NCBI GenBank assembly: GCA_020523885.1
Contig: JAJAPY010000004.1
Span: 1 to 64,000 of the forward strand
DNA from: Candidatus Liberimonas magnetica
GTDB lineage: Bacteria > Elusimicrobiota > Endomicrobiia > Endomicrobiales > JAFGIL01
Length of the DNA stretch: 64,000 bases
Direction: 5' to 3'
Part shown: positions 1 through 18,990 of the stretch, one piece after another
Layout of the letters: every line of letters starts with the position of its first letter
Numbering within the stretch: the first letter of the stretch is position 1
Program-made: the position numbers and the translations under genes
The notes under the pieces: generated by a model
Database searches by the model: none
Told to the model about the DNA's origin: nothing
The model's input: only the letters and a program-made list of their open reading frames with translations

Positions 1-813
1 AGGGTTTCGCAGCTGAAGAAAGACAGGTTTTCCGGGTCAGCGCTGATGTCGAGTGTAAGGATTGATGATGAGTCCGGGCCGAAGTTAGGCAGGGGAGAGC
101 TTAATAAGCTAAGGAAGAAACTGAATATCAGGGTTGCAAGGAACTATGTGTGCGACACGCTGGAAAAGTTTGTGGGCCTTGAAAAAGAGGTGCTAAACCT
201 GTTGGGGACGTATGACGATGTGTACCTAGATTTAAGGAAACTAGACAAAGAGCTTAGCGCAGCGGATTTTATCAGCTGGTTTGCTGTATTTTCTGTAGAT
301 AAGAGGGCGAAATATCCGGAAGCGAAGATATATTTTACGATGCCGCAAAGTTTAGGTGCAGCTCTGGGAGAAGAGGGAAGCAAGAATCTAGAAGCTGCGG
401 TAAGAGGGGTACAGAACTTTTATATAAACCCGTTTGTTATAGAAAAAGAAGCAGATCTTAATAAAGTGCTGGCAAATCCTGAAGGTATAACGGATGTAGT
501 TATAATGAACAGCTATGAGGGTTTAAAAGATGTGAGAGTGGGCGATAAGCTGAGGGATTTAGTAGGGTTTGGGGTAATGGATGCGGATCTCTTTAAATAC
601 GGCAACGAGTTAGGGTTAACGATTTTTGGGAAAGGGAATAAGAAGGCTGCCAGGCAGATCAAGGAACTAAAAGAAGAAGTTTTCAAGGAGATGTGCAAAG
701 TGGCGGTTGAGTGCTACAATGATAAGGATGAGGGGTTGTTTGAAAAGATAAGAAACGTGTTGGCAGATGAAGCGTTTAAGAGCGGACTCTGTCTTCTCTA
801 CCCACAGCCCTAA
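1..813 (+). CDS. C-terminal part of an unidentified protein, open at the left edge
   Basis: The frame is open from base 1, so the ATG at 46 is probably internal and the true start lies outside the window. I recognise no family. The visible 270 or so residues read as a soluble alpha/beta protein, with charged helices (RKLDKELSAADF, KNKKAARQIKELKEEVF-like segments) and beta-type stretches such as DVVIMNSYEG and AKIYFTMPQ. It has no membrane segment. It is the only plus-strand gene. Its last 147 bases overlap the end of the minus-strand giant ORF, and convincing coding character stops around base 785, exactly where that of the giant ORF begins. It could be the tail of another giant ORF, since it looks compositionally similar. 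The function is unknown. Confidence 0.6.
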   Translation, partial: RVSQLKKDRFSGSALMSSVRIDDESGPKLGRGELNKLRKKLNIRVARNYVCDTLEKFVGLEKEVLNLLGTYDDVYLDLRKLDKELSAADFISWFAVFSVDKRAKYPEAKIYFTMPQSLGAALGEEGSKNLEAAVRGVQNFYINPFVIEKEADLNKVLANPEGITDVVIMNSYEGLKDVRVGDKLRDLVGFGVMDADLFKYGNELGLTIFGKGNKKAARQIKELKEEVFKEMCKVAVECYNDKDEGLFEKIRNVLADEAFKSGLCLLYPQP

Positions 814-3800
814 GGCAGTCCTTGCTCCCGCAAGCACTATTCCAGGAATCATCGTGTCTTCCCCGTTCACGTCCAGCTTTGTAAGCTTCCCTTCTTTTGT
901 CGCTGCCTCAGGATCAATGAATCCTACCCTTATTACATTCGCCCCGCTGCTTGCCGCTGCTTTCGCACGGCCTTTTGCTTCTTCCTCGTTTGCCATCCCA
1001 AAATCCGCTATAAACACCGTCTTTGTTCCCAGCCCGCTTGCCTGAGCTATTATCCGCTTTACTATCTCCTTTACTATCTCCTGCGGCTTATATGTCCTTA
1101 TTGCTGCTAATACCGACACCCTTGCCTCCGCGATGACAGGCGTTTCAGATTTTATATTAAGACCCGAAACCGACGAAGCCAGCGCCTCGCCTGGAGCGGC
1201 TTCTATGTTCACCTGCCTGTGAATTTTCAATTTGTCTTCAAGTTTTGTGATTCTTTTATTTAAACTGTGCCTATAATTATCATAATCATTATCCTCATCA
1301 ACTTCCTGTCTTATGCTTTGAAGTTCTATTGACAATCTTTCCAGTTCTTCACCTGTAAGTTTTTCCTGATCCATGCGCTGAAGTATGCTGTCCAGCCTGC
1401 GGTTTATTATTCTCTTTTTTTGATTCGGTGTCAGTGTTGGCTTACCTCCGGTTTCATCACCTGTTTTTTTATTTGTTTTTGATAGTATTGCAGGCGCTAC
1501 TGCGCCAACACCTAAATTAGAGGCAACACCGGGCGCCGGAGCAGAGGCTTGATAAACCGGCTGAAGCTGGATAGTAGTTTTCCCATCAAGCTTGGCAGCA
1601 ATAAGAGCGGGTAAATCAAGCCAGTAGTAGCTTTTTGTCTTGTTGTCCTTTATCGTTTCAATTAGTAAGACACCTTTGCCAAGCTGACTAATAGCATATT
1701 CAATGTTTTGATCCGGTTCTTTCATGATATCCGGAAATGCCTTTGCACGGTCAAGTATGAACGCTCCTTGTGCATCAGTAGCCCGGGAAAACATGGGAGT
1801 CCTCTTAACTACTTTAGGGTCTGATTCTGTCTCATATACATTTACTGCTAGGCCAAGCGATTTATCAAGCTGTATCTTAATAGTTTCAGGTATGTCTTCT
1901 TTTGTGAAAGGGGGATTTGTTATCATCTGTACTCCATTGACCATGGTGCCTGTATATCCGAGCCCCTGCTTAATGCGCCTGTTAAGGAGTTTAACCTGCC
2001 AAGCGGGAATTTTATCATAGCCTCTCATATCTGTCAAAGATAAGTCAAAGCTGTACATAAGGCCCATTAAACCTTTATGAGGGGGTACTCCCGGGATGTC
2101 AGCTTTGGCATCAAAGAGGTAATCATCGAAAAACGGCACTAAGGCATGCATCCATTCATGAAGCATTAAATAATCATAACCGTTTCTTAAAGCATCCGGG
2201 TGAAACCCGGCATAGTCATCTCCGTCACGCAGGGCCCAGCCGCCACTGTCAAATGCTGTCCAGGGCCTCCTTTGCTCTAAAGTCAGGCTTGTTACACGTC
2301 TTATTGGCATCACCTCTAATACTACGTTTGCGCCGGAAGCGGCAAGGATCTGATTAATTTTAACTATATGCTTCTGGATATATTGCTCGGGAGAGAGGTT
2401 TACAACACTGCGAATGCTTTTTTCCGTTTTAGCATCAATAATCACTTCTACGGGCCGGTGCTGGATCCCGGATTTATCTATAGTACACTGTTTCTTAGAA
2501 GGGGTATAAGAGTCTGCCGGTGCGCTTGGCTGGGGCGCCGGTTTTGTCGGTGCAACAGGCGCAGTTGTAGCGGCCGGATTAGACGGTACGCCTGTTGGTT
2601 CAACAGGTGCAGGTTCTGGTGTAATTGTCGCTTCGGAAACACAAGCCAGTGTCATAAATGCGAGCGTACCAAAAACAAGAGCAAGGAATCTCCTCCTTGT
2701 TACCTCTGTTGAAACCCCTCCCTTTACTGCCATTGCTACGGCATCAGACTGTTCTGTCAGTGCCTGGCCCGGGCCGGCTTCTATATTTACTTGCCGGTGG
2801 ATTTGAATGTTTGCTTTAAGCCCAAACTTATTTATTAATGTGAACACATATTTAAATGCAACCTTCACACTTGCCACTATGGATAAAACGTTTATTACAT
2901 GCAACCCTATCGCACCCATATCCAACCAGCCTGCCAGGGGCGCAAAAATTATTGTTATCACAAGGCCTGCTGCAACAGCCAGTGAAACACCGATAAGGCC
3001 TCCCAAGAATCCTCCAAGTGCGGTTTTTACAATTATCTTATTTAAGCCTTCCTGCATGCTACCGCTCCACCGGTTCTGTTCTGTATCCCGTACTTTGTGA
3101 GCATTCTTAAACGCTTTCAGAGCATTTTCATATTCGTCCTTGTTAAATACCTGCGTCAGCCACAGCTTGGTAAGTTCCATGAGCTCCGGTGCCTCTACCT
3201 GCGGAGCAACTTCCAACTCGCTGTAAAGGGCTATTAATTCTTTCTTGTGGTTGAACAGTTTAGTACCCAAAACCAATGATTGTTCCACGGTTTCATCAAG
3301 CGAACTGTCAGACAAATCAGCGATAGCGAGCAATTCTTTTGGAAACTTATCTTCTTTGCCGTTCTTTTTAAGATCAGACAATATTCTTTTTAATACTTCC
3401 AGCTTTTCTTTTAGAGACATCCCTTCCCATAAAGATTCCCCTTTCTTATACGTTGCTTCCGCGGTCAAGGCCCCTCCTGCCACTGGAACTGCCTGGCTGG
3501 GCTGGCTATAGTCAGGGATAAAAGTAACCTTGACATCTGCTTTAGGAAGTATCTTTATTGAGTATTCCCCGTTATCATTATCAAACCAGATCTTCCCGAG
3601 AGGGCCAAAATCATATGTCGTGTCGAATTTCAAATCACGATATTCGTCTCCTTTAGGCCCAGGTACACAGGAAGTTATCTTACCATCCTTGAACGTGATC
3701 AAACTTGATGGTAAGTTTTTTTGCTTGGGTTCAAGTACAATTTGCATATCCCCGCTAAGCTTTTTCTCAAACCGTTCAAACAATTCTTCGGCAAACCCAT

Positions 3801-6800
3801 CTTCGGAGATTTGTATTTTCTGAAAGAAATCGGCTTTTGAATTAGTTATACTTACAATTGATTTGCCAACCCTGTTATCAGCAAGACTTATGCGCACTTT
3901 AAAATAGCCTTTGCCTATCCTGGTTACATTTAACACGAAATTTCCGATTTTAAAGTTTTTCCCGTTTGACGGCACCTGCAGCTTCTTGCTTTCGATATCA
4001 CCTCTATCGGTACCTTTTCTATCGGTTACTGCAAATAATTTTCCGTTTTCAATATTTAATATAGATCTGAATCTGTCCTTGATCAGCAGATGAATTGTTT
4101 TGCTGTCTTCTAAAATCACCTCACTGGTGCCGTTTGTTTTAGACAGCTCAACTATTGTCTTCTTCGCTTCTGAATCAAGGTTAAGCATTCTTTCCGTTTC
4201 CGTAACCATTGTGTACTGTGCCTGGTTTAACGGTTCATTCCATGAAAACGAAAAATCCTTTACTGACACGCCTCTATTTGACCTCTTAATATTCAGTGTC
4301 AACTCTAGTGTCTCCTGCTCAGGTTTCTCGCCTATACTAATGATTTTCCCGCTCTTATCAATGTAAACATGAATCTTCGAGAACCAGTTTTTACCCTCGA
4401 GAGTTTGCCCGAGAGCTTGAATGTCTAGCTCCTTTAGCATTGCAATGTTTCTATCAACTACTTTTCTCTGTTCTGCTGAAATGTTTTTGCCTGCCAGTGA
4501 ATACATGCTTGTCTCTACGATGTCTGTAAAATCCATACCCGGGAATAGATATTTAAGTATCTTTCTCATATTATCGTCTACCTTAAAAGTGGTCCTGGCG
4601 ATTATTCGTGCAAGGACAGCATCTGACTTCTTAATCAGAGCTGATTCATCGGCATATTCAGGTTTTACTTTGGCAATGTGGTGTAAATAGCGGTGGTATG
4701 ATTCTACGAATTCGTCTGTACCAAGCCCTGCAACTAACTGTTTTAGTTGTTCCGGGTCCTTAACTAAAGAGTCAAACTCATCCAGCTCTTTTTTAGACTG
4801 GATATCCCTGTATTTCTCGTTCAGCCAATAATAATTGAAATCCCCGTTGCCGCCTTTTCTGGCTATGGATTCTTTTATTTCATGTATTATTCCTGTGACT
4901 CTTTCCTTCGGGGTAAAATACTTAAAGAATCCTTGTGACGCATCTATAACAATACTGCCTTTAGCTGATTCTTCCTTATTTATTGTGGCAAAACCTACTG
5001 TAGTCTGGTCAACATAGAGAATATCGCCTTTACATTCCCTTATTTTTACCGGATATTCAACTCCGTCAACAACAATCTTTCTTTCAATAACGTTTTGTTT
5101 TATATAGACCCTTTTTTTAGGTATTTCTGCAAGTATGGCAAATCCCATATTTCCAGCAATTTCCTGAATTTTACCTGCCAAAAGCACTTGTGCCACAGGT
5201 CCCAGTATCTTCAAAATGATGCCGTACATGTTCTTGCCGAGACCCTGAACACCTAACTGTGCTAGAGCAGTATTTCTTATTTCTAAATCAAGTTCTCTCC
5301 AATTATCCATAGCTTCTATTTTAGCGTAAAAAACAATTTTTCCAAGTTTTAAAACATCATTATCCAGAGTATAGATAACACTATGAAAGTTGGCTATATA
5401 CAATTCCGAGGTTTTTGCAACAAAATCAAGTAAATTTTCTAATTTATATCGTTCTTTGTTTTTGATAGCCTCAAGCCAGGCATAAACACCTAAAGTTTCA
5501 TTAAAGACCTTATTAGTTCCATTATTTCTCCATTCTTGCCACTGTTCCTCAAGTACAAGCCTTGCAGCTTTAACCAAATCTTTTTGCCAGTCTTCCGTGG
5601 CTGCCTGTTCTGCACTGCGTAAGTGTGTTTCGTCTTTTTGTATATACATTTCAAGATGATTATTCAACTTTTGAGCAGTGATCCCCAGATTGCGTTTGAC
5701 TGTTCGCTTTGTCAGCTCCTCGCCGAACCTGGCTTGTACGTTCACCTGCCTGTGAAAGTAAATATTTCCTTTAAGCGCCCAGTTATATGCCAACACGGAC
5801 CCAAAAATATATGTAAGCCCGGCACTTATACCTACTAATACAGCACTTATCACATTAAATCCGCTTCCGCCTATATCTAAAAGGTTTACAAGAGGCATAA
5901 AATACGTGCTTGCTAAAAGGCCTAGCATAACTGATAGTGCAATACCAACAAGGCCTCCCAGCAATCCTGCAAGCGCAGTCTTAGAAATTATCTTATTTAA
6001 GTCCCGCTCCATCTCCCACGTCCACAGGTCGTTTTCTCTGTATTTCACCTTGTGTGCTTTCATGAACGCAGCCCGCGCATCAGCATATTTTCCAGGGTTA
6101 AAGACCTGTGTAAACCAAAGCCATGTAAGATTCATGAGCTCCCCGGCTTCTATCCGAGGCGCCGCTTCCAGCTTGCCGTAAAGGTCAACTATTTCTTTCT
6201 CGTATTTGAGCAGGTTTATGCTATATTTTTCCTGTAAATCCAACAGTTTTTCTTTGGACACATTGAGTTGTTCATCACCAATAGTGAGCAATTCTTTTGG
6301 GAATTTGTCTGCTCTGCCGTTTATCTCAAGGTCATATAATATACTTTTTAGTATTTCGAGCTTTTCAATTAGAGATTTGTTTTCCCATTCTGATTTCACT
6401 AAATCAGGGACTATTTTTACCTGCCCGGCTGATAGTTTCTGTCCAATCGCATACATAAGCTCATTTATTGTCTCATCTAATATAGGAGAAGTTATGCCAG
6501 CTCTTTTGGCTCTTTCAACTATATCTGTTTTATAAGGCCGGAACGCCCAAAACGCATACAGCCTGGTTTTTGCCCGCGCTATCTCTTCATCTGTCAATTT
6601 ATTATTATTGGAGAGCATCTCCGTTCTTTGCTCCGCCTCTGCCAGAACTATCTTCAATGCTAAATCAAGTTTATCCTGGTTCTCTTCCAAACCTGATATG
6701 TATTCTTTTAGCCTGTGTGCCCTGGAGTCATGGCCTTTTGGCTCTCTCATAAGAGAATCCAGAAGCCCATCTATTATTTCCTGTACTTCAGGAGAGTACA

Positions 6801-9800
6801 CTTTAGCCTGCTGTGCTTTTATGATTAAATCTGATTTATAAGGCCGGAATGCCCAAAACGCATACAGCCTTGTCTTTGCCCGCGCTGTCTCTGCATCTGT
6901 CAATTTATGGCTGCTTTTTAGAATACTCGTATCCTGTTCTGTCTCTGCTAAAACTAACTTCAATGCTGAATCAAGTTTTTCCGGGTCTTCTTCTAAACCT
7001 GCTATGTATTCTTTTATTCCGTCCAGCCTGGGGTCATGGCCTTTTGGTTCTTTTATAAGCGCTTCTAAAACCTCATCTATTATCCCCAGCATATAATCAG
7101 TGTCTTGGCTATACTTCCTTACTATATCAGTTAAACTTTCCTTTGAAGGGCGGTGTGCTAAAAACGAAAATAATTCTGCTTTTACTCTATCCTTGTCCGC
7201 ATGAACAAACAGAGAGCTTCCTTCAACCACTTCTGCAATAAGATCCAACACCACATCTAATTTCCTTGGATTACTACCTTTTTCTAACTCTTCTATATAC
7301 TCCATCAATCCGCTTGTCTTATCTAACGGCCTTCTGCCCAGTTCATCCATTTTCCACGGCTTCTTTCCAATTGCTGCCATAAGCTCGTATATTATCTGGT
7401 CTGATGCAGGAGAAGATGCGCCAGCCCGCCTTGCCATTTCCAATATATCTATTTGAATAGGCTGGTATCCCCAAAATGCATACAGCCTGGTTTTTGCCCG
7501 GGTAATCTCTTCCGGCGTTAATTTTTCTTTTCTTCCGAGAATTGCCGTTTTTCTCTCCACCTCTGCTAAAACTATCTTTAAGGCCAGATCAAGTTTATCC
7601 GGATCTCCTTCTAAACCTGCTATGTATGCTTTTAACCCGTCTGCCCTGGGGTCATGTTCCTTTGGCTCGGTTATAAGCGCCTCTAAAAGCTCATCACTTA
7701 TCTGCTCTATTGCAGGTGACTCTACTGCTTTCGGAAACAAATTATATTTATAAGGCCTTAATGCCCAAAACGCATACAGCCTTGTCTTTGTCCTGACTAT
7801 CTCTTCCGGCGTTAATTTTTCTTTTCTTGCGAGAATATTTATATTGTTCTCTACTTCTGCTAAAACCATCTTTAAGGCCAGATCAAGTTTATCCGGGTCT
7901 CCTTCTAAACCTGCTATGTATGCTTTTAACCCGTCTGCTCTGGGATCATGTTCCTTTGGCTCGGTTATATACGCTTCCATAATTTCATCTAACAGTTCTT
8001 CATCGCAGTCTTGGGTATGCCTTTTAAAAATATCAATTATTTCGTCTTTTTTCGGCTGGTTTTTTAAAAAAACATTTAATTCAGACTTTATTCTTTTTAC
8101 ATCTATATTTTCTTTTTTACTTAAAATATAACTGCTTTTATCTATACCTAGTTTAATGATTATTAACGCTTTATTTAGTTTTTCTTTATTACCGCTTTTT
8201 TCCAAACTTTCAATATAAGCCCTCAAACCGCCTGCTCTATCTAATGTTATGTTATACGAGTTGAGCAAATCGTCAAGCGAGGTTGTTTCATTTTCGGACA
8301 GCTCAACGCCCGGGATGGAATTTAATACAGCTCTGACGGTTTCAGGGGCATTAAATTTATAGGCTTTTTCAGCTTCATCTATCACACTTTCTGCTTTTTT
8401 GATAAGCTTGGTTTCTAACAGGAATTGTTCGGCAGTCTCATTTTTGCCTGCATCTAAATACTCTCCTCCGGCTTTGGCTTCAATATAGGCATGGTAAAGT
8501 TTTACAAACTCCTTTGTGTCAAGGTTCCGGGCTGATTTTCCAGCTTTGAATACACCCAAGTACTTATTAAACCCGGTATCTTCCCCCTGGCGGGCATCAG
8601 CTTCTCTAAATTCATGTTTAACAGCTACCATAAGTTCATCATTGGCAGGTACCCAGCTATCCCAAAGCTCCCAGAAACTTTCTGACACAGCAATTGTAAG
8701 CCCGTCAGCTTCAAGCGTTGCAAGACCGGCCACACCTTCCATTGTTTGTGATTGTATCACTTTGCCATTATATGTCCTTATCTTTACGGCCTTGCCGTCA
8801 AATGTTATTTGCCTGTCTTTCTGCCCTTCTTTAATGTTTTCCGGCGCTATCTTAGTTATATTTGGGAGTATATCCTTTGCCGTCTCTAGAGCAACCAATG
8901 CCAAATCCCGGCCAAGGGCTTCCCTGATAACAGGCATATTGCCAAGCGCATCCAAAACCACCTGCCTCACGCTTTTACCCAGCCAGTTTTCTTTTAAAAT
9001 CTGCGTATCATGCTTGGCCATTTGATCAAGCGCGTTTTCTGCTTCACCTATATAATATTCTATACGCAGTTTTCTATCTATATCTGATTTTAAACCAGGT
9101 AAAAGCTCATCTACTGTATTAAGATGGCCAAATACGCTCTTAATTAAACGATCTTTTTCACTTTCACTTTTTGCTTCTCTTGCTTGTTCTACTATTAATT
9201 CTGCTTTTTCTATTTGTTTTCCAATTGCATCAACAGTATATGTAAGAATTTGCTTTTGTGTATCATTCTGTATTATTAAATCTTCATTTGCTTCAAACCT
9301 TGCTTTTTGTTTTTTATACATATCTTTATAAAGTTGAACTCTTACAGAAATATCGACAAACCTTCCGTCTTGTTTAAGAGCAGAGGCTAGCCCATCTTTT
9401 TGTTCTATATTTGTCAGGTAATCATAAAGAATTTCCAAATAGCGGATATTCATTTCAGCATTTGCGGTAAAAACACTGCAATATTCAAACTTGCCGCCGG
9501 AAGGAAAATCCCGCTTAAGATTGTATTCCAGGTTCCTTAAGTTTCTGCCAATTTTTTCAAGCAGTTCGGCAACAGTCTTTTTTTCATTGTCATTCACGTT
9601 ATGCGTTTCAACAGTTCCGAATTTCTGTAAAAGGAGGCTCTTGGCCCTATCATACCTTGGTACTAAATCTTTGTATACCTGTAAAAAACTAATCCTGGAC
9701 CCAATAACATCTGCCTTTGTGCCGGACTTGGCCGCGTTGGTTAATTGAGCAAGCACAGCCTCTGCAGAAAGGTTGGCTGATGCAACAGCCGGAACCATTC

Positions 9801-12800
9801 CCTTCATGACATTTATAATCTCATCTATTATGCTCACCTCCATGGCATTGATGAGCTTAGCGTCGCTGATGTAGGGCCCGGCGTCCTCAATAGTTACTCC
9901 CCATACGTTAAATCTTCCAGTTTGTACTTTGGATTTTTGAGCTTCCTGAGCTACAGCTTTCACGCACTCGTGCCAGAGTTCGTCTGTTGCATGTTTAAAT
10001 TGTAATTCTTTATGGTGCGTTTCCAAATATCTGGCAAAAACCTTCGCTTCACCTTGTGCTTCTTCAGCGGATTTGACTCCACTGACTTTCAGCGCTCTAA
10101 ATTCCATTCTCTCATGCCGTTCAATATAAGAATTAACAGACATCTCATTCTTTGCAAGGTTATACAGCCATGCCAATGAACTCCCGTAGGCTGCAAAGTA
10201 CCCTTTTGATGCTAAAGTTTCTTTATCATCAATATGGATTATGTCCGCTTCCGGGAACATCTCGTGCAACACCTCAAGCTTCGAGGCGCCGCGTTCTACA
10301 TTAAGGATAGTAATCTCGGTTCCCTCTAAACCGAACATTACATTTAATATTTCAATAAAAGGTGCTGCATCCTTTGTACTAGTAATAACTATCTTTATAC
10401 CGTTTTCCTTGCAATAAGCCAGCAGGGATTTCAGTGCCTGATAATTTTGCTCTTTTGTATTTATTGATTTTTCAAGCACTCCTACTATATCAAGAGATAT
10501 TACTTTTTCTATTTTTTTATCAAGTTTCCCAAGAGCCTCAGCAGAAGCTTCGATGCTTACTTCCCCGGTTTCGTCATGGCTGGCATACCTTACGCCCTGC
10601 GCATCAGCCGAAAGCCCGGCTTCGGCTAATTTTACAGATAAGTCAGACAAACTTACAACCGTATTTATTTTAGCCATATTCAATACTTCGTTTAGTATCT
10701 GCTTAACAGTCCCGGCACTTATGCCAAGCCACCAGCCTTTCTTTTTCTTTGGTGCTTGTGCTTGGGGTGCAGACGCTGCTATTTTAGCTTCCACTTGGGA
10801 TAATAACCCGCTTAAAATACCACGCTGCCGGCTTGTTATATTTATAGAAAACATATTATTTATTTGTTCTTTTAAACTAACCCAATTTTCATCAGGTGAG
10901 TTTGAGCTTAATAAAGTACGTATATCATTTATTGCCTGTTCAATGTCCGTATTATCATCATACAGGACTGCTCTATTCTGTCCTCTTAATTGCTCATCAC
11001 CCTGGCCGCTTCCGTATTGAGTTTCATCACCACTAAATAACGATAACCTTTCCTCTTTTTTATGTGTCAGGTTCCATATACTATGCGCGGATATGTTGGC
11101 CAGGTCTTCTATTGTAAGGGAAGATATACTCTGGGGAGACATATACAAATTGATTGAATTTAGTACAAACTTTGTCAAGGCAGAATTTAAATTTACCAAC
11201 CCGCCAATCCCGAGCCTTTTAGAGATTTTCTGCCTATCTTCTTTGCCCAGCCCCAGAAGCAGGACTGACACAACCGCAGTTACCGCTTTTGAGAGGTTTT
11301 TAGCTCCATAAAATTCTTCACCTAAGATCTTCATTGCGGCACTTAGGGCAGTTTCATTCGTTGAATTTTCAATATATAAAATCCCTTTAAGCAGCTTAAA
11401 GCGCCTTTTTTGCCATTCACTATCGCTTATAGATTCACTGCCTTGCGGCCTGTGCGCATTTATAAACGTTTTAAGAGCTTCTATATAATCCCGCATATCC
11501 TTATCAGAGGCACCAGGCGCAAAAGCAGCCTTCTTTAACATTAATATTTCTGCTATCTTTATGCGCTCCCTAACCGGAGAATATTGAAACTCTATTTCAT
11601 CAGGCAGCGGCAAATCAGAATCAATAATCCTAAAAGCTTTTTGTATATCAAATTTCTTTTCTTTTCCGTTTATGAGCATTTCCCTAAAGACTTTTCTGTA
11701 AAACTCAGCTTTTTCCTTCCTTGCTGGCTTATAATCCAAATACAATTCATCAATTAGAAATTCCAAAAGTGCTGGTATCTGGTACGGCTCAATGTATGGA
11801 ACAGCCTCCCTGCAAAACTTTTCTGCCCTAAAATAATTAGATCCGTTAAGATAGGTCCGGGCATGAGCAAGCAGAGTTGCAAACCTTTGTGAACCTTCGA
11901 TATGCCGTCTTGTGTTATGAACACGGTCCAGCATCTGCCGGATATCAAATTCATCCTGCCTTCCCTCTACTATTAATTCATCCAGTTTATCCGAATAGGC
12001 ATTCACCAGCTCCTTGCCAAGCGACTCTGAGCTATATATTGAATCAAGCGTATCAAACACTTCCGGCAGATTCCAAAGTTCTGCAAAATTAATCGCCTTT
12101 TCACAATAATATTTTGCCTCATCATAATCAAGTCTGTTAATGCTTTTATAAGCATCAACCATATTGTCCCTAAATTCATTAGAAGCCATTGAAACATCTT
12201 TTTCTACCAGCTCTGATATAAATTCCAGGTGCATGATTAACTGCCGTAAATCAATGCTTTCCTCTTTTATTATCTTTTTACGATACGCTTCTACTACTCT
12301 CTTTCCCCAATCCGTAGACCCAAACAAGTTTTCGACAGTTTTGAGCACAGAGGATAAGTTTTCTATTTTTGCCACTCTAAGCGCTTTTACGTAATACGAT
12401 ATTTTTTCAACATCATCCGTGCTTTTTTCTGCAGCAAGGATTAATGAACTAAAAGCTCCGGAAATGTCAGCTTTAAGCCCTGGAACATCAAGATAAGTCG
12501 CATCAGTTCCTTGCTCTTCTATCTCGTCAATAAGAGCCAGGGCTTTATTGAGACGGGCCTGTTCACGGGCATCTTTCTTAGCCTGCCTTCTTCTTTCTTC
12601 TGCTCTTTCAATCTTAGCAAGCCGCTCTTTCTCGGCACGTTTTAACTCCAGCTTTCTTCTTGGCTCTGCAAGAGCTTCTTCAATAATACGTCTGCGTTCG
12701 TTCTCCTGCCTTAAGCCTTCTTTGGCACTCTGTCTAACTCTATCAACCACCTGGGCCAGCCTTGAAGGATCTGACTGCCAGGGATTTCCAGCCAAGGGAA

Positions 12801-15800
12801 TTGCCAGGGCTTCATCCTGCTTTTGCCTGGTTACAGCAATAATATCTTCAGCTATTTGTTTCATAGGGGTATAATCTTCGTATTTTATTCTTTCACGTAA
12901 ATCTATAACTTCAGGCTGGTATGCCCAAAATGCGTACAGCCTGCTTTTTGCCCTGGCTCTTTCCTCTTGTGTCAATTTATATTCCTTATTAAACATATTG
13001 AGCTTGTTTTTTGCCTCTTCCAAGGCGGTTCTTATTTCCAAGTTAAGCTGTTCAGTATCTCCTTCTAAATCTGTTACGTTTTTCTTGCTCCTTAGTATGT
13101 CCATATTCTTTTCAGTTGCTGTCAAAACAAACTTCAGCGCTAAATCAAGTTTTTCCGCATCACCTTCTGATTCCAAACCTGCTATATATTGTTTTAACCT
13201 TTCTGCCCGCGGGTCGTTTTCTTTTGGCTCTACTAAGAGTGCTTCCAAGAGCTCATATATTGTTTCCTGCATTAAAGCAGTATACCTTTCGGATCTATGC
13301 GCCCTGTCGATTAAATCTTTCTTAAGCGGCTTGAATGCCCAAAATGCATAAAGCCTGGTCTTTGCCCGCTCTACTTCTTCTTGTGTCAATTTTTCTTCTC
13401 TGGCAAGAATACTCGTATCATTTTCCACTTCTGATAAAACTAATTTTAGCGCCATATCAAGCTTTTCTGTTTCCCCGTTCAGCTCTAAACACGCTATGTA
13501 TTCTTTTAATCCGTCTGCCCTCGGGTCATGGCCTTTTGGTTCTGCAATACAAGCCTTCATGAAATTATGTATAATTTGTTTATTATAACTGCTATCCATG
13601 CCATGCCTTTGAAATATATCGAGTAAGTAGCTTGCACTTGGCCGATGATATTTCACAACGAAATTTATCTCTTTTTTAATATCCTCTATAGTGTAATTTT
13701 CTCTTAAAGGGTCGCTATTTCCGTTTGTTTCAACCATAATAATTCTAAAAACCATTTCTAACTCTTTTCTGTTTCCTGTCTGCTGCAGTTCTTCTATGTA
13801 ATCCCACAGCCCGCCTACCCTGTCCAGCGGCCTGTCTTTACGTACCTCAACTTTGGCCTCTACCGGAGCCGGTGCTGCATTTGTATCAGTATTCGCTTGC
13901 TGCTGCCGTGCATTTAAATTTCTCCGGGCTACCGCTGTTTTATCCCATAATATTCCTAAAAAACTTCTATTGTCAGACGTTAAACCCGGGATATTTGGCC
14001 GGCGGAATAAATCTTGTATGAAACTTTCTATTTTCGACAGATCTGCCAACTTCTCTGAAGCCGGTTTATTCAGGCTCATCATCTCTTCAAGTATAACGGA
14101 TAAATTGTTTATCTTTTGTTCAACAGCAGCAGGGTTGGACAATACATCCCCAGTCCAGCCAGCTTTAAATTTTTCGAATTCCTTTTCGAAATCATAAGCC
14201 CTGAAATCATCGGTGTAAGACTTGACTGCCGATAACCTTTCCTCTTTTTTATGTGTCAGGTTCCAGGCAGTATGGGCAGATATGTTGGCCAGTTCCTCCA
14301 GGGTAAGGGCAGATATTTCTTGAACAGACATGAACGAATTTATAGATTTTACTATCAAATCTGCTAATGCAGGATTGATATCTGCGCCTTCACTAAGCCC
14401 CAGCTTGTCTTGGATCAGCTTTTTATCTTTCTCGCTTAAAGCCAGGATAGCTACAACGGCATTGGCTGCTTTTGAAAGGTTGGTAACACCGCTAAACTCT
14501 TCGCCTAAACTATCGGCTGCGGCTTTTAGGGCTCTTTTGCCCATGGATTTTTTAATAAAACCCAATCCCTTTTCCAGTTCAGCGCTCCTTTTTTCCCATT
14601 CTTTATCGCTGATAGCATCCTTACCTTCAGGCCTGTGCGCATCTAAGAACGCTTTCAACGCAGTTTCATATTCCTGCTTTGCTTCAGGCGACGCATCCGG
14701 CGTCTTCGCGGCTTTTTGTAGTTTTAATATTCTCGCTATTTCAGCCCGCTCTATAACCGGGGTATACTGAAAATCAAATCCGTTTTCCCTATCTTCTATG
14801 GTTATCTTCAAGTTACTTCGGATCTTCCATACAATTGCTACAAGGAGCAGAGTTTTTAAATTATCGGTTACCTTATCAATAAAAATCTTTTGGCTTGTCT
14901 TATCAGTAACGAGCCTTATCATATCTGTGTATCCAATAACAGAGGTTGCCAAAGTTCTAAATAGATCATTTATGATAACCCAATCACCGGCTGATACGGT
15001 CCGGAAAGTAAGGCCTCTGTCTTCGATTTCAGTGTTTGCATTAAACCTGGTTACAGCTTCCCAGACTAATTGTTCATAGCTCATGCCGGTAATCTCAGTT
15101 TGCATCTTTTCAAATATCTTAAGCAATATCGGGCCTACTACAGGGTTTGCCAAATTCTCGTTGAGATTGGTTTGGACCAATTTAGAGTCCTGGTTATTGG
15201 ACTTTTTCATAGCCTCCTGGAACACCGCATCAAAATCTTTTATTATAGCCATTGCCCAGGCTTTCGGATCTGCAGTTCTTTGCATTTGCTCAGGCGCCGG
15301 CATGGGGATTTGCGAGGCATAAAGCATTTCTGCAATTCGTTTCAGCGAAGGATACTCCTTCATATATACGTCTTGATCAATATTGACACCTTTTATTTTG
15401 CTGCCGAAATTTATCGAAATACTTTTATTTTCATTTAAAGTTACTGTAACCTTATCTTCTCCAGCTGCAATCTGTGCAGAAATCATCAAACCTTTACTTG
15501 TAATATTAAACATCTTAGTAAAAGTTTGCAGATTGAGGTCTAAGCCGCCTAAAGTTTTATCAGAATCATAAAGCGTTCTTTTGCCTGCATACTCAGTTCC
15601 GAATGCCTTCAAAGTTTCGATTAATTTATTTACGGCTGGGGCAGGCAGCGCCAATATTGGCGTTTTTTGTGTTTCCTGTCCTGCAGTCCGGTCAAGTGTT
15701 GCTGCGGCAGTGGTATCGTAATGTACAGAGGCATCTTTACCCCTAATAAAATTATAGACCCTGCTAACGCTTATATCTCTATCTGGGCTATACCCCGTCT

Positions 15801-18800
15801 CTTCAGTTATATATTGCCTATCCGGATGCATAGGGCTCAATCCTCTCACAGCTTCAGGATAGAGAAATTCATAAAGCTCAGGTTCACTTTCAAAAATAAT
15901 CGCAAACATCACCCTTCCGTAATATTCTTTTTCAGTTATGCTGCGCAAAAATCCTGCAAGATTCACATAATCAACCTTAACATCTTTTGGAATTATCAGG
16001 GGAATTATTATTTCACTCAGGTCAGTTCTTGTACTGCCTAATTCTTCTTCAATATTTTTTTGCAATGTACGAAAATATCCGTCAAACTTTATAGGAGTAT
16101 AAACTTCTGCCATAAACCATGGTTTTTTTGCATCAGCCGGATATTGTAATTTCCCTAATGCTTTAAGCGCTTTGGCAAACTCTAATGGTTCAGGATGGCA
16201 TACTGCAGCCGCTTTACCCAGCAATACATTATTCCTTAACTGAAAACCATCCAATACTTTTTTTGCTTGTTTTTCCAAATCTGCTTGTTTAATTTGCGTC
16301 CTTGCAGCTGAGGTTGCACTTGAACCTGCAGCCAGTGCAGGAAGTTTTTTATAATATACCGCTATGGTGTTCCATACGCCGTGGCCTATAAAGCTTACAG
16401 CTATCGCTGCCGCAGGTTTAAGGAACGAAAATGGCAGAAATACAATAAGGACCGCGCCGCCAAGCCTCTTAAAGAAGTTTTTTGCTACTTCCTGTTTTGT
16501 AATGTGTCCTTTATTGTACTCCTGAATATCTTGTATGAGATGAATCGAAACAAAAACTACTGTTATAGCGCCGAATGCAGCGGTTCTTAATAAACCTGTT
16601 ACAGGAATAAAAGTTAAAACTCCAAGCGTAAGGGTTTCTAAAGCTGCCCAGAAAATATATGTCCGCCATATTGGTGATTTCCACGCCGGCTGCCGGCTTT
16701 TTTTAAATTCTTCATCAATCTTATTAATTTCCTTCTGCACACTTTGTCTTACCTGGTCAGGAGCGTTAAATTCATTTTTTTCTGAAAACTCATCAACATT
16801 AGGTGCTGCTGTCATTTTAACTGCATTTTTATCGGCTTTATCATCAATACTTAACAAATGGCCTTTGCTGTCATAGGTACGGGTAACTGCAACTGTTTTG
16901 TTATTTGCATCTACATATACGATTTGAAGTTCATAATTCCCGTCATCGGCTGGAGTGATAAGAATTTTAAACTTTTCGTTTTCACCAAAAAGCTCTCCCA
17001 GCACCTTGTTGACAGCAGCTATTCTTTCTCCTGCCTTACCTTCACCGTTAACAATGAAATCTCTTATAAAATCGGCTGATACAATAGTCGCTTTGTTTTC
17101 AAAGCCTGCCATAGTTGAAAGTACTATAAGCTGAAGGGAATTTAAGTGTTCCGAGGCAAGTTTAATGTTTGAGAAATCTATTATGTTGAATGCCAGTTCC
17201 TGTTTGACTGTTCCGGCTATATCATTGAAAACCCCGGGAAGAAATCCCAAGACTTTTGGGTCTTTAGCAAGCATAGCGCTTTCAAGCTTTAAAAGCTCTG
17301 AATAAGTGTTCTCGGCAAAACCGACATCCTGAGTCACATTCGGAGTGATGACCAGGTAAGGTATGTTTTTTTCTTTCAACAGCTCTGAAAGGCCGGGCGT
17401 ATGAAAACCCCCGGTAATTACAACAACTATGTTTTCCGCGTTTTCAAGCAGATTTGATGAATCAAGCTGTGAATTTGAGTTAGCTTGCTTCGTCGCTTCG
17501 CTTCTCGCAATGACTAAAGGGGTGTCATTGCGAGCCGCAGGCGAAGCAATCTCGCTGTTATTCAAAGCAGTTTCACTGACCCCTGCCCCCTGTCTGCTAT
17601 CCCCTGTTACTATATTGCAGTTAGCCAAAAGACATTCGTTCCTTTTGATATTTACATTGTAGTATTCGTTCAGCAAAGCGATATATGGCTGGACCTGGGA
17701 AAGTTTATCATTTCCCGCATACTGCGCCCATAAAGTGTTGAACTTCGATATGTTTTCTTCGACAAACTTATAATCTTCGGCTGTTATCTTATATGACAGG
17801 TATTCTTTTAAACTCTTTGTAAACTCAATTAAGAAAACTATGTCGCGTTCGCTGGATTTCAAGGCAAGCCTTAAACGGATTTCATTAAGCAGTTTGTTTT
17901 CTTCTTTTACGAGCTGTAAGGGGTTGATGTTTTTGGTTGAGTCAAGGTAGTTGAAAAACTTTTTAAGGTTAGGGAGATCGTTTAGCAAAGAGGGGTCATA
18001 GTCTTTTGCTAACCTGGCCAAATACACGTATAACTGGTTTGCCTGGGTAAAATTTACGGTATTTGCCGCAAGCATTTTGTATGCGCTGTAGGGGAGCTTT
18101 TCTTTAAGAAGCACTATGAAACTCTGAAGTTCTCTGGTGATCTTTTTATAATTAAGCTCTTTGGCGATAATAAGGGTATTTGAGAATTCTTCTACGTTTC
18201 TAAATCTTACGGTGTCTATATTAAGTTTCTGCGAATATTCCAGTAAATCGGAATAATATTTCTGGGGGTCAATATTGCCGTTCTTGTATTTCAGTACAAA
18301 GTTGTCTAATTTTCTGTTTTTTGAATCATAGTACCTTTCTTTAAGCCTATCAAGGTCAGGAGAGAGTTCATCAAGGCTTGCCATTATTTCTTTCTGCTTG
18401 TTTTCAATTGTGTTCAGGCGTATTATGTTGTCCGTATGAAGTTTCCTGTCATCCACACCGAACAACAGATCAGGCCTGTCGCTCAGGACCGAGTAATACT
18501 CTGCTCCGGTAAGCTTTCCGCCGTTTACCAGGGATTCAAGCACTTTGGTTTTTAATTCCTTATCCTTGACCTGTGTTATCCAGGAAGTATCTACCGGCCC
18601 TGCAGCACCTTCGATATACACCCGTTTTAAATGGTACTTGTTATCCAGCAAGGAAAGAATCTTTGAAATATTCCTTTGTACTTCAGCATGGCAATGCAGA
18701 TCCTGAATGTTAATAACAACAGTATTCGAGTTATTAATTCTTAGTTCAGAGATAGTTCCGGGAAGCTGATCCTTATTCTCCGAACTCTGAACTTTGAGCT

Positions 18801-18981
18801 CCGAACCGTAGTTGTCCGTTATTCTGCCGACCGCAGCCGGCAGGACAAAGCTGTCAAAGATCTTTTTGAAATCTTTGACCTCCTTGTACCTCTCGACCAC
18901 GGCCTGAAGAGGCGGGCTCACGATAAAACTGAATACGAAGCATAATGTTGTTAAAATGGCGGTAAATTTTTTATAGAGCAT
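667..18981 (-). CDS. Giant secreted/membrane multidomain protein (about 6,104 aa)
   Basis: One uninterrupted frame of about 18.3 kb. I start it at the ATG at 18981, which has a GGAGG ribosome site 5 bases upstream; an in-frame TTG at 18993 only encodes that ribosome site. In order: signal peptide (residues 1-27); TraB/ChaN-like region (about 80-560, with IQDLHCHAEVQ, EGAAG and GGFHTPG motifs); membrane helices (about 770-880); a duplicated domain of about 185 aa (about 1405-1590 and 2458-2648); repeat array A (about 1715-2050); charged coiled coil (about 2085-2150); decayed HAD-like domain (about 2825-2940); repeat array B (about 3578-4183); two copies of a helical domain with membrane helices, each ending in HRQVN; an embedded RRRFL/LAC signal (about 5426-5447); and an HEWMH motif (5608). 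The role is unknown. The signal peptide and helices imply that it acts in or beyond the inner membrane. The last 38 or so residues lie antisense to the plus-strand gene and may not be genuine. Confidence 0.85.
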   Translation of the reverse strand: MLYKKFTAILTTLCFVFSFIVSPPLQAVVERYKEVKDFKKIFDSFVLPAAVGRITDNYGSELKVQSSENKDQLPGTISELRINNSNTVVINIQDLHCHAEVQRNISKILSLLDNKYHLKRVYIEGAAGPVDTSWITQVKDKELKTKVLESLVNGGKLTGAEYYSVLSDRPDLLFGVDDRKLHTDNIIRLNTIENKQKEIMASLDELSPDLDRLKERYYDSKNRKLDNFVLKYKNGNIDPQKYYSDLLEYSQKLNIDTVRFRNVEEFSNTLIIAKELNYKKITRELQSFIVLLKEKLPYSAYKMLAANTVNFTQANQLYVYLARLAKDYDPSLLNDLPNLKKFFNYLDSTKNINPLQLVKEENKLLNEIRLRLALKSSERDIVFLIEFTKSLKEYLSYKITAEDYKFVEENISKFNTLWAQYAGNDKLSQVQPYIALLNEYYNVNIKRNECLLANCNIVTGDSRQGAGVSETALNNSEIASPAARNDTPLVIARSEATKQANSNSQLDSSNLLENAENIVVVITGGFHTPGLSELLKEKNIPYLVITPNVTQDVGFAENTYSELLKLESAMLAKDPKVLGFLPGVFNDIAGTVKQELAFNIIDFSNIKLASEHLNSLQLIVLSTMAGFENKATIVSADFIRDFIVNGEGKAGERIAAVNKVLGELFGENEKFKILITPADDGNYELQIVYVDANNKTVAVTRTYDSKGHLLSIDDKADKNAVKMTAAPNVDEFSEKNEFNAPDQVRQSVQKEINKIDEEFKKSRQPAWKSPIWRTYIFWAALETLTLGVLTFIPVTGLLRTAAFGAITVVFVSIHLIQDIQEYNKGHITKQEVAKNFFKRLGGAVLIVFLPFSFLKPAAAIAVSFIGHGVWNTIAVYYKKLPALAAGSSATSAARTQIKQADLEKQAKKVLDGFQLRNNVLLGKAAAVCHPEPLEFAKALKALGKLQYPADAKKPWFMAEVYTPIKFDGYFRTLQKNIEEELGSTRTDLSEIIIPLIIPKDVKVDYVNLAGFLRSITEKEYYGRVMFAIIFESEPELYEFLYPEAVRGLSPMHPDRQYITEETGYSPDRDISVSRVYNFIRGKDASVHYDTTAAATLDRTAGQETQKTPILALPAPAVNKLIETLKAFGTEYAGKRTLYDSDKTLGGLDLNLQTFTKMFNITSKGLMISAQIAAGEDKVTVTLNENKSISINFGSKIKGVNIDQDVYMKEYPSLKRIAEMLYASQIPMPAPEQMQRTADPKAWAMAIIKDFDAVFQEAMKKSNNQDSKLVQTNLNENLANPVVGPILLKIFEKMQTEITGMSYEQLVWEAVTRFNANTEIEDRGLTFRTVSAGDWVIINDLFRTLATSVIGYTDMIRLVTDKTSQKIFIDKVTDNLKTLLLVAIVWKIRSNLKITIEDRENGFDFQYTPVIERAEIARILKLQKAAKTPDASPEAKQEYETALKAFLDAHRPEGKDAISDKEWEKRSAELEKGLGFIKKSMGKRALKAAADSLGEEFSGVTNLSKAANAVVAILALSEKDKKLIQDKLGLSEGADINPALADLIVKSINSFMSVQEISALTLEELANISAHTAWNLTHKKEERLSAVKSYTDDFRAYDFEKEFEKFKAGWTGDVLSNPAAVEQKINNLSVILEEMMSLNKPASEKLADLSKIESFIQDLFRRPNIPGLTSDNRSFLGILWDKTAVARRNLNARQQQANTDTNAAPAPVEAKVEVRKDRPLDRVGGLWDYIEELQQTGNRKELEMVFRIIMVETNGNSDPLRENYTIEDIKKEINFVVKYHRPSASYLLDIFQRHGMDSSYNKQIIHNFMKACIAEPKGHDPRADGLKEYIACLELNGETEKLDMALKLVLSEVENDTSILAREEKLTQEEVERAKTRLYAFWAFKPLKKDLIDRAHRSERYTALMQETIYELLEALLVEPKENDPRAERLKQYIAGLESEGDAEKLDLALKFVLTATEKNMDILRSKKNVTDLEGDTEQLNLEIRTALEEAKNKLNMFNKEYKLTQEERARAKSRLYAFWAYQPEVIDLRERIKYEDYTPMKQIAEDIIAVTRQKQDEALAIPLAGNPWQSDPSRLAQVVDRVRQSAKEGLRQENERRRIIEEALAEPRRKLELKRAEKERLAKIERAEERRRQAKKDAREQARLNKALALIDEIEEQGTDATYLDVPGLKADISGAFSSLILAAEKSTDDVEKISYYVKALRVAKIENLSSVLKTVENLFGSTDWGKRVVEAYRKKIIKEESIDLRQLIMHLEFISELVEKDVSMASNEFRDNMVDAYKSINRLDYDEAKYYCEKAINFAELWNLPEVFDTLDSIYSSESLGKELVNAYSDKLDELIVEGRQDEFDIRQMLDRVHNTRRHIEGSQRFATLLAHARTYLNGSNYFRAEKFCREAVPYIEPYQIPALLEFLIDELYLDYKPARKEKAEFYRKVFREMLINGKEKKFDIQKAFRIIDSDLPLPDEIEFQYSPVRERIKIAEILMLKKAAFAPGASDKDMRDYIEALKTFINAHRPQGSESISDSEWQKRRFKLLKGILYIENSTNETALSAAMKILGEEFYGAKNLSKAVTAVVSVLLLGLGKEDRQKISKRLGIGGLVNLNSALTKFVLNSINLYMSPQSISSLTIEDLANISAHSIWNLTHKKEERLSLFSGDETQYGSGQGDEQLRGQNRAVLYDDNTDIEQAINDIRTLLSSNSPDENWVSLKEQINNMFSINITSRQRGILSGLLSQVEAKIAASAPQAQAPKKKKGWWLGISAGTVKQILNEVLNMAKINTVVSLSDLSVKLAEAGLSADAQGVRYASHDETGEVSIEASAEALGKLDKKIEKVISLDIVGVLEKSINTKEQNYQALKSLLAYCKENGIKIVITSTKDAAPFIEILNVMFGLEGTEITILNVERGASKLEVLHEMFPEADIIHIDDKETLASKGYFAAYGSSLAWLYNLAKNEMSVNSYIERHERMEFRALKVSGVKSAEEAQGEAKVFARYLETHHKELQFKHATDELWHECVKAVAQEAQKSKVQTGRFNVWGVTIEDAGPYISDAKLINAMEVSIIDEIINVMKGMVPAVASANLSAEAVLAQLTNAAKSGTKADVIGSRISFLQVYKDLVPRYDRAKSLLLQKFGTVETHNVNDNEKKTVAELLEKIGRNLRNLEYNLKRDFPSGGKFEYCSVFTANAEMNIRYLEILYDYLTNIEQKDGLASALKQDGRFVDISVRVQLYKDMYKKQKARFEANEDLIIQNDTQKQILTYTVDAIGKQIEKAELIVEQAREAKSESEKDRLIKSVFGHLNTVDELLPGLKSDIDRKLRIEYYIGEAENALDQMAKHDTQILKENWLGKSVRQVVLDALGNMPVIREALGRDLALVALETAKDILPNITKIAPENIKEGQKDRQITFDGKAVKIRTYNGKVIQSQTMEGVAGLATLEADGLTIAVSESFWELWDSWVPANDELMVAVKHEFREADARQGEDTGFNKYLGVFKAGKSARNLDTKEFVKLYHAYIEAKAGGEYLDAGKNETAEQFLLETKLIKKAESVIDEAEKAYKFNAPETVRAVLNSIPGVELSENETTSLDDLLNSYNITLDRAGGLRAYIESLEKSGNKEKLNKALIIIKLGIDKSSYILSKKENIDVKRIKSELNVFLKNQPKKDEIIDIFKRHTQDCDEELLDEIMEAYITEPKEHDPRADGLKAYIAGLEGDPDKLDLALKMVLAEVENNINILARKEKLTPEEIVRTKTRLYAFWALRPYKYNLFPKAVESPAIEQISDELLEALITEPKEHDPRADGLKAYIAGLEGDPDKLDLALKIVLAEVERKTAILGRKEKLTPEEITRAKTRLYAFWGYQPIQIDILEMARRAGASSPASDQIIYELMAAIGKKPWKMDELGRRPLDKTSGLMEYIEELEKGSNPRKLDVVLDLIAEVVEGSSLFVHADKDRVKAELFSFLAHRPSKESLTDIVRKYSQDTDYMLGIIDEVLEALIKEPKGHDPRLDGIKEYIAGLEEDPEKLDSALKLVLAETEQDTSILKSSHKLTDAETARAKTRLYAFWAFRPYKSDLIIKAQQAKVYSPEVQEIIDGLLDSLMREPKGHDSRAHRLKEYISGLEENQDKLDLALKIVLAEAEQRTEMLSNNNKLTDEEIARAKTRLYAFWAFRPYKTDIVERAKRAGITSPILDETINELMYAIGQKLSAGQVKIVPDLVKSEWENKSLIEKLEILKSILYDLEINGRADKFPKELLTIGDEQLNVSKEKLLDLQEKYSINLLKYEKEIVDLYGKLEAAPRIEAGELMNLTWLWFTQVFNPGKYADARAAFMKAHKVKYRENDLWTWEMERDLNKIISKTALAGLLGGLVGIALSVMLGLLASTYFMPLVNLLDIGGSGFNVISAVLVGISAGLTYIFGSVLAYNWALKGNIYFHRQVNVQARFGEELTKRTVKRNLGITAQKLNNHLEMYIQKDETHLRSAEQAATEDWQKDLVKAARLVLEEQWQEWRNNGTNKVFNETLGVYAWLEAIKNKERYKLENLLDFVAKTSELYIANFHSVIYTLDNDVLKLGKIVFYAKIEAMDNWRELDLEIRNTALAQLGVQGLGKNMYGIILKILGPVAQVLLAGKIQEIAGNMGFAILAEIPKKRVYIKQNVIERKIVVDGVEYPVKIRECKGDILYVDQTTVGFATINKEESAKGSIVIDASQGFFKYFTPKERVTGIIHEIKESIARKGGNGDFNYYWLNEKYRDIQSKKELDEFDSLVKDPEQLKQLVAGLGTDEFVESYHRYLHHIAKVKPEYADESALIKKSDAVLARIIARTTFKVDDNMRKILKYLFPGMDFTDIVETSMYSLAGKNISAEQRKVVDRNIAMLKELDIQALGQTLEGKNWFSKIHVYIDKSGKIISIGEKPEQETLELTLNIKRSNRGVSVKDFSFSWNEPLNQAQYTMVTETERMLNLDSEAKKTIVELSKTNGTSEVILEDSKTIHLLIKDRFRSILNIENGKLFAVTDRKGTDRGDIESKKLQVPSNGKNFKIGNFVLNVTRIGKGYFKVRISLADNRVGKSIVSITNSKADFFQKIQISEDGFAEELFERFEKKLSGDMQIVLEPKQKNLPSSLITFKDGKITSCVPGPKGDEYRDLKFDTTYDFGPLGKIWFDNDNGEYSIKILPKADVKVTFIPDYSQPSQAVPVAGGALTAEATYKKGESLWEGMSLKEKLEVLKRILSDLKKNGKEDKFPKELLAIADLSDSSLDETVEQSLVLGTKLFNHKKELIALYSELEVAPQVEAPELMELTKLWLTQVFNKDEYENALKAFKNAHKVRDTEQNRWSGSMQEGLNKIIVKTALGGFLGGLIGVSLAVAAGLVITIIFAPLAGWLDMGAIGLHVINVLSIVASVKVAFKYVFTLINKFGLKANIQIHRQVNIEAGPGQALTEQSDAVAMAVKGGVSTEVTRRRFLALVFGTLAFMTLACVSEATITPEPAPVEPTGVPSNPAATTAPVAPTKPAPQPSAPADSYTPSKKQCTIDKSGIQHRPVEVIIDAKTEKSIRSVVNLSPEQYIQKHIVKINQILAASGANVVLEVMPIRRVTSLTLEQRRPWTAFDSGGWALRDGDDYAGFHPDALRNGYDYLMLHEWMHALVPFFDDYLFDAKADIPGVPPHKGLMGLMYSFDLSLTDMRGYDKIPAWQVKLLNRRIKQGLGYTGTMVNGVQMITNPPFTKEDIPETIKIQLDKSLGLAVNVYETESDPKVVKRTPMFSRATDAQGAFILDRAKAFPDIMKEPDQNIEYAISQLGKGVLLIETIKDNKTKSYYWLDLPALIAAKLDGKTTIQLQPVYQASAPAPGVASNLGVGAVAPAILSKTNKKTGDETGGKPTLTPNQKKRIINRRLDSILQRMDQEKLTGEELERLSIELQSIRQEVDEDNDYDNYRHSLNKRITKLEDKLKIHRQVNIEAAPGEALASSVSGLNIKSETPVIAEARVSVLAAIRTYKPQEIVKEIVKRIIAQASGLGTKTVFIADFGMANEEEAKGRAKAAASSGANVIRVGFIDPEAATKEGKLTKLDVNGEDTMIPGIVLAGARTALGLWVEKTESALKRFICQHVSYLFKQPLILIIVALNRHFAHLLENFFF
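2141..2710 (-). other. Embedded Tat/lipoprotein-like signal and HEWMH domain in giant ORF 1
   Basis: At residues 5426-5447 (2641-2706) the protein reads TRRRFLALVFGTLAFMTLAC: a (S/T)RRxFL twin-arginine box, a hydrophobic core and a lipobox-like LAC (position -3 is T, not the canonical L). A Pro/Ala/Thr-rich linker follows, then a globular domain with LMLHEWMHALV (HExxH at 2146-2160), typical of zinc metallopeptidases. This is the layout of a whole exported lipoprotein, placed about 5,400 residues into another protein. Confidence 0.6.
2779..3440 (-). repeat. Duplicated helical plus membrane domain, copy 2, ending in an HRQVN box
   Basis: The matching motifs are EKLEVLKRILSDLK, LTKLWLTQVFN, KAHKVRDTEQN, two hydrophobic segments, and IHRQVNIEAGPG at 2779-2799. 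A third HRQVNIEAAPG without the membrane domain lies at 1201-1221. Confidence 0.8.
5734..6405 (-). repeat. Duplicated helical plus membrane domain, copy 1, ending in an HRQVN box
   Basis: The layout is a helical stretch (EKLEILKSILYDLE), then LTWLWFTQVFN, then KAHKVKYREND, then two hydrophobic segments, then FHRQVNVQA at 5734-5754. The same order recurs at 2779-3440. Confidence 0.8.
6435..8250 (-). repeat. Repeat array B of giant ORF 1 (six ~100-aa units)
   Basis: Two header units (LDRAGGLRAYIESL near 8230, LDKTSGLMEYIEEL near 7310) alternate with four full units of the same family as array A. At DNA level the unit period is about 295-303 bp, shown by the recurring antisense of EPK(E/G)HD(P/S)R near 6728, 7031, 7650 and 7945. 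Neighbouring units at 7540-7720 and 7830-8000 are nearly identical, a sign of recent tandem duplication. Confidence 0.85.
10160..10510 (-). other. Decayed HAD-like domain in giant ORF 1
   Basis: The order ISLDIVGVL, then KIVITSTKD, then DIIHIDDKETLA follows HAD motifs I, II and IV. However, motif I reads LDIVG rather than DxDxT, so the nucleophile/acid pair is incomplete. It is probably non-catalytic. Giant ORF 2 carries an intact-looking HAD domain (47760-48740). Confidence 0.4.
11040..11610 (-). repeat. Copy 2 of a duplicated ~190-aa domain in giant ORF 1
   Basis: Protein match to 14220-14770: FQYSPVRERIKIAEIL, HRPQGSE, ANISAHSIWNLTHKKEERLS. It shares a perfect 36-bp direct repeat with the first copy at 11041-11076. 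Confidence 0.8.
12835..13835 (-). repeat. Repeat array A of giant ORF 1 (three ~100-aa units)
   Basis: There is one header unit (LDRVGGLWDYIEEL) and two full units. Full units carry the signatures EPKxHDPRADGLKxYIAGLE, KLDLALKxVLxExE, KLTxEExxRAKTRLYAFWA and xxxLLEALxxEPK. The pattern is helical and TPR/HEAT-like, but I match it to no named repeat family. The last unit carries an insert of about 40 aa. Confidence 0.8.
14220..14770 (-). repeat. Copy 1 of a duplicated ~185-aa domain in giant ORF 1
   Basis: This segment (FQYTPVIERAEIARIL through HRPEGKD to ANISAHTAWNLTHKKEERLS) recurs at 11040-11610 with the same order of motifs. The 3' end keeps a perfect 36-bp direct repeat (14230-14265 and 11041-11076), which suggests a fairly recent duplication or gene conversion of that end. 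It is all helical by appearance, with no known family. Confidence 0.8.
17320..18745 (-). other. TraB/ChaN-like region of giant ORF 1
   Basis: Just after the signal peptide come VVINIQDLHCHAEVQ and RVYIEGAAG (about 18590-18740), and about 400 residues later VVITGGFHTPGLSELL (about 17380-17430). The layout of an early H motif, an E-containing strand and a late GxxH motif is that of the TraB/TIKI/ChaN superfamily. The match is by eye and the spacing is longer than usual, partly because a palindromic repeat was inserted at 17483-17555. The activity is unknown. Confidence 0.35.
17483..17555. repeat. Palindromic repeat captured in frame inside giant ORF 1
   Basis: Two arms of about 32 bp, at 17483-17514 and 17524-17555, are imperfect reverse complements meeting at CTCGCAATGAC/GTCATTGCGAG with a 9-base loop. 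Repeats of this CATTGCGAGC...GAAGCAATCTCG type are normally intergenic in many bacteria. Here it is translated (SEIASPAARND and ARSEATKQ), lengthening the TraB/ChaN-like region without breaking the frame. Confidence 0.85.
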
Positions 18982-18990
18982 TTTGTCCTC

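Follow-up and report, generated by a model that had tools for sequence, protein, structure and literature searches.

A lipoprotein-type export signal and a putative protease domain embedded deep within a giant predicted protein of Candidatus Liberimonas magnetica

In the window analysed here, i.e. the whole stretch of 64,000 nucleotides of Candidatus Liberimonas magnetica DNA, a complete lipoprotein-like precursor is encoded about 5,400 residues into another protein. This had been claimed in the original prediction, and the order of the motifs, their coordinates and shuffling controls agree with it; the arrangement is real and unusual. The giant open reading frame concerned, g1, extends over positions 667-18993 of the minus strand and comprises 6,108 codons in one uninterrupted frame. 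Within it, RRRFLALVFGTLAFMTLAC starts at residue 5433 and is followed by a Pro/Thr-rich linker of about 50 residues, VSEATITPEPAPVEPTGVPSNPAATTAPVAPTKPAPQPSAP, and then by a domain containing the motif HEWMH. As also predicted, the signal, the Pro-rich linker and HEWMH are located after an HRQVN box in a single frame (residues 5399, 5433, 5451 and 5612 for the box, the RR motif, the lipobox-like Cys and HEWMH, respectively). With moderate confidence, we regard this part of g1 as a captured lipoprotein protease gene whose former signal now probably serves as a signal-anchor.

The twin-arginine lipoprotein-type signal, TRRRFLALVFGTLAFMTLAC, is encoded at positions 2641-2700 (minus strand), with RRRF reading from position 2697. 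It contains the twin-arginine consensus [ST]RRxFL and a hydrophobic core (TRRRFLALVFGTLAF), and this core ranks fourth in hydrophobicity among the 19-mers of g1 on a simple additive scale. The lipobox-like Cys (positions 2641-2643, minus strand), one of 18 Cys residues in g1, is directly followed by the linker (positions 2497-2640, minus strand, as read from the sequence). The canonical lipobox [LVI][ASTVI][GAS]C is not matched by the embedded signal, the corresponding residues being T-L-A-C, which fit a relaxed pattern like that of PROSITE PS51257. The pattern [ST]RRxF[LIVMK] was observed once in g1 versus 0.014 times expected from composition shuffles, and the full motif of RRxF, an uncharged core and [AGS]C was also observed once in g1 and in none of 3,000 shuffled versions. 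That an ordinary transmembrane helix resembles a lipoprotein signal by chance is, in our view, quite improbable. There are several other helices in g1, the lipobox is loose and the homology searches yielded no protein with the RR motif at its start, but chance would have to account for the shuffling result, for the Pro/Thr linker immediately after the Cys, and for the finding that the sole relative of the following domain is a lipoprotein.

The flank on the N-terminal side of the embedded helix carries a charge of +3, the 15 residues on its C-terminal side include no positive and three negative charges, and the first Lys after Cys 5451 comes 33 residues downstream. With +3 before the core and no positive charge after it, the positive-inside rule therefore predicts an N-in/C-out orientation with the putative protease outside. 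For the earlier helices of g1, the flanking charges give no single consistent topology. In the known dual Sec-Tat proteins, the last helix leaves Sec by means of low hydrophobicity and positive charges on its C-terminal side (PMC5449189). These release features are missing from the embedded signal, and we therefore expect, with moderate confidence, that Sec inserts the helix as an anchor. In the reading that we prefer, the gene of a giant cell-envelope protein would have taken up, by in-frame fusion, that of an exported lipoprotein protease of the Tat type, with the insertion point behind copy 2 of a two-helix membrane module. The old signal would now be a signal-anchor that keeps RRR in the cytoplasm and spans the inner membrane with its hydrophobic core, so that the Pro/Thr linker and the HEWMH domain would be located outside; cleavage would not take place. 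The conversion of the signal into a membrane segment, which was one of the two outcomes originally envisaged, is the best fit to the hydrophobicity rank and to the charges on the two sides of the helix. It should be noted that, unless the fusion happened recently, it would be odd for a plain anchor to have kept both a full RR motif and the lipobox Cys.

Components of the export and lipidation machinery are encoded in the genome. TatC was identified with an E-value of 1.2e-59, and the ORF adjoining it was identified by eye as TatA-like. The lgt gene, for the prolipoprotein diacylglyceryl transferase that is required for lipoprotein maturation, is located at positions 28298-29068 of the minus strand (Pfam LGT, E 2.5e-68). 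The TatA-like ORF and TatC lie together with an ORF that has a Tat-like leader, RKSFLRISATFLV (RKSFLRIS), at L027:3271-5533 of the same genome. The presence of TatA-TatC and Lgt speaks in favour of the alternative that g1 specifies a processed polyprotein, in which Sec or Tat would insert the signal, Lgt would lipidate Cys 5451, and signal peptidase II would cut before this Cys and release the C-terminal part, about 658 residues long, as a lipoprotein protease. Such processing is the main alternative, though less likely than an uncut anchor. The RR motif, the core and the Cys are all intact, the Pro/Thr tether after the Cys is typical of surface lipoproteins, and the positive-inside rule places RRR in the cytoplasm, but the lipobox (T-L-A-C) is weak, and both the C-side positive charges and the low hydrophobicity of the dual Sec-Tat handover are missing (PMC5449189). 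More specifically, Sec might insert the initial 5,400 residues, after which the internal twin-arginine signal would be recognised and lipidated, and signal peptidase II would cut it; this course of events appears doubtful. If the polyprotein reading were true, a single mRNA would supply an envelope giant as well as a lipid-anchored protease separate from it.

A separate lipoprotein could also be made from the same DNA by an internal translation start, for which a test had been suggested with the original prediction. A single in-frame ATG lies close before the RR motif. It encodes residue 5421 (positions 2731-2733, minus strand), 12 codons ahead of the motif, which is a distance usual for a Tat n-region, but it has no Shine-Dalgarno sequence: the duplex energy at this ATG is -0.7 kcal/mol, versus a mean of -2.7 over all internal Met codons and -9.3 kcal/mol at the likely start of g1, Met 5, which has a GGAGG Shine-Dalgarno sequence upstream. 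Since there is also no promoter-like site in positions 2400-3400 of the window, an internal start is very improbable, and the test lent it no support.

The HRQVN box that precedes the signal is part of a repeated membrane module. Copy 1 of this module A (residues 4200-4431; positions 5701-6396, minus strand) ends in HRQVN box 1 (positions 5740-5754, minus strand) and copy 2 (residues 5186-5416; positions 2746-3438, minus strand) ends in box 2 (positions 2785-2799, minus strand), shortly upstream of the RR motif. The two copies are 47% identical, and each has two hydrophobic helices and the terminus NI..HRQVN(I/V). Box 3, IHRQVNIEAAPGEAL (residue 5925; positions 1207-1221, minus strand), is bare and comes after the protease segment, from which it is separated by a charged and, according to the translation, probably helical stretch (positions 1234-1581, minus strand). 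No HRQVN box was found outside g1 in this genome. A profile of the module A pair detected one distant but recognisable counterpart among 340 other genomes of the phylum, in the genome G005 of the same order, where it sits in a frame of 6,342 residues and the box has the form HYDVNLESEPGEAL; the module ends in LNVSKHYDVNLESEPGEALTKE, followed by unrelated sequence, with no lipoprotein after it. Since copy 1 and the G005 module both have the box without a lipoprotein, the box is, on sequence grounds, a conserved exit of the membrane module that is separate from the lipoprotein. Because HRQVN belongs to the preceding membrane module, it is no evidence for processing, and its simple reading as a processing site was rejected. 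A target-site duplication represented by boxes 2 and 3 was unsupported as well, the longest exact DNA stretch of box 3 being shared with box 1 (17 nt, versus 10 nt with box 2). The giant protein of G005 also shares the N-terminal region of g1 and of a second giant ORF, g2.

The domain behind the linker (residues 5512-5804; positions 1582-2460, minus strand) is a putative metalloprotease domain, as suggested by its HExxH motif and its likeness to a Dehalococcoidia protein, and protease activity would be expected of it. With regard to the zincin criterion of HExxH plus a third ligand, the putative zinc motif HEWMH is present (positions 2146-2160, minus strand), and the protease segment had no match in Pfam, NCBIfam or PDB. 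AlphaFold2 models obtained from the domain sequence, without and with the single relative, were unusable (pLDDT 37 and 33). A second copy of the segment is absent from the genome, and no relatives were found in 150 near genomes, in plasmids or in viral contigs, while matches to phages were at chance level only (E 0.4 and above). Sequence and profile searches of about 340 genomes of the phylum revealed no homologue; weak matches with E-values of 1e-4 to 0.008 were rejected, as they mostly involved low-complexity Pro/Ala linkers, some of them between ACP-like repeats. Since the HEWMH domain was undetected in these genomes, it is probably an accessory acquisition, to judge from its distribution.

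The sole relative, on the Dehalococcoidia MAG contig JAAXHR010000343.1, is 24% identical over domain residues 23-269. It was found in genome contigs by means of a motif query prompted by HEWxH proteins of Chloroflexota; the alignment behind the query held five artificially varied rows that represent patterns only, and confirmation was obtained with the real sequence of the window. As HEWMH had itself been the route to the relative, the HEWMHxL motif was left out when the flanks were compared. The likeness of the N-terminal part (SPEQYIQKHIVKINQILAASG in comparison with SPERWVHDHVGRLNKLLADAG) had a z-score of 6.8, with none of 2,000 shuffles scoring as high, and that of the C-terminal part a z-score of 3.5, with 12 of 2,000 shuffles as high. 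The similarity thus holds beyond the motif and is collinear along the length of the domain. A profile search among 392 other genomes of the relative's class yielded no further HEWMH relatives.

The Dehalococcoidia protein starts with a lipoprotein-type signal, VLTVALVLVFAFLCAC (FLCAC), followed by a TP-rich linker, LRR repeats, CARDB and the HEWMH domain. Its continuity from signal to protease is likely but unproven, because an assembly gap of two Ns separates the LRR part from the CARDB part. The locus (L028:2499-5220) represents a lipoprotein that combines LRR and CARDB with an undescribed HEWMH domain that has no Pfam family. The protein resembles g1 in having a lipoprotein signal, a TP-rich linker and a related HEWMH domain; in contrast to g1, it is free-standing, its signal has no RR motif, and LRR and CARDB stand between linker and protease. 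The search for a free-standing homologue with the same N-terminus was therefore successful with respect to the lipoprotein signal and the linker but not with respect to the RR motif, and no homologue beginning at this motif was found in the genome itself, the near genomes, the phylum, the class of the relative, plasmids or viral contigs. The lipoprotein ancestry of the protease segment is nonetheless reasonably supported at the sequence level, because this distant free-standing relative is a lipoprotein with both linker and HEWMH domain. The same finding argues for the originally suggested fusion of a lipoprotein gene, which we infer to be the route by which the segment was incorporated. No orthologue showing the fused or the unfused state was found.

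A further explanation for the arrangement would be an assembly chimera near the contig end, connecting the giant gene with an independent lipoprotein gene. Position 1 of the window is the first base of contig C4, and the protease segment lies only 1.2-2.7 kb from this end. Moreover, the last 147 nt of g1 (positions 667-813) overlap tail to tail with an opposing ORF (positions 1-813, plus strand) that enters from the contig start, and the same join was seen in no orthologue. A chimera is nevertheless unlikely, since a single frame is open across both joins, the codon usage of the segment is native, i.e. within the range of g1 itself, and box 3 beyond the segment clearly groups with the other two boxes of g1, with which it has at most 17 nt of exact sequence in common. 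Codon usage likewise gave no signal for the segment being foreign DNA. Within the C-terminal stretch of g1 after box 3 (positions 667-1206, minus strand), the last 40 or so residues of the giant protein may be non-native, as a possible artefact of the contig end.

At its other end, g1 starts with a Sec-type signal sequence, MLYKKFTAILTTLCFVFSFIVSPPLQAVV, recognised from the sequence and its hydrophobicity (positions 18895-18981, minus strand). A VIARSEATKQ stretch at positions 17497-17514 (minus strand) resembles a dispersed repeat peptide known from many genomes. Internally repeated domains are encoded at positions 6510-14775 (minus strand; residues about 1407-4160): residues 1407-1635 and 2468-2695 are 45-53% identical, and a unit of about 100 residues recurs at about 1725-2040 and 3585-4185. 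The second giant ORF on the same contig, g2, has 12,656 codons (positions 45028-64000 of the window and on to C4:82998, minus strand), and over the first 570 or so residues it shares 48% identity with g1.

Little is understood about the giant proteins of such bacteria, including the way in which their topology is established. An intact-looking embedded export signal suggests that they grow by capture of whole genes for exported proteins, signals included, and it provides a single testable site for whether giant proteins get cut into pieces. Like Tat/SPII lipoproteins, the g1 segment has RRxFL, a hydrophobic core, a Cys and a Pro/Thr-rich tether, and TatA, TatC and Lgt are encoded in the genome; unlike in these lipoproteins, the signal comes only after about 5,430 residues and several other membrane segments, and the lipobox is relaxed. 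Bradyrhizobium FbcH, a cytochrome b/c1 fusion that is cut at an internal signal peptide by ordinary signal peptidase, also has the precursor of a secreted protein behind a membrane protein, but it is a two-domain protein and its processing is known. Giant ORFs of Omnitrophota resemble g1 in being very long, with several helices and few recognisable domains, whereas an embedded lipoprotein precursor is a feature of g1 that is not described for them in the parts of that report considered here (PMC10066038). The dual Sec-Tat proteins, exemplified by the actinobacterial Rieske protein Sco2149, the Sco3746 family, polyferredoxin and the YkuE type (PMC5449189), share with g1 an RR motif directly before a late helix, and the earlier helices of g1 should likewise be Sec-inserted. 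In g1, by contrast, this helix is one of the most hydrophobic in the protein and has no C-side positive charges, so that both Sec-release features are reversed; g1 also has a lipobox-like Cys and no evident cofactor domain.
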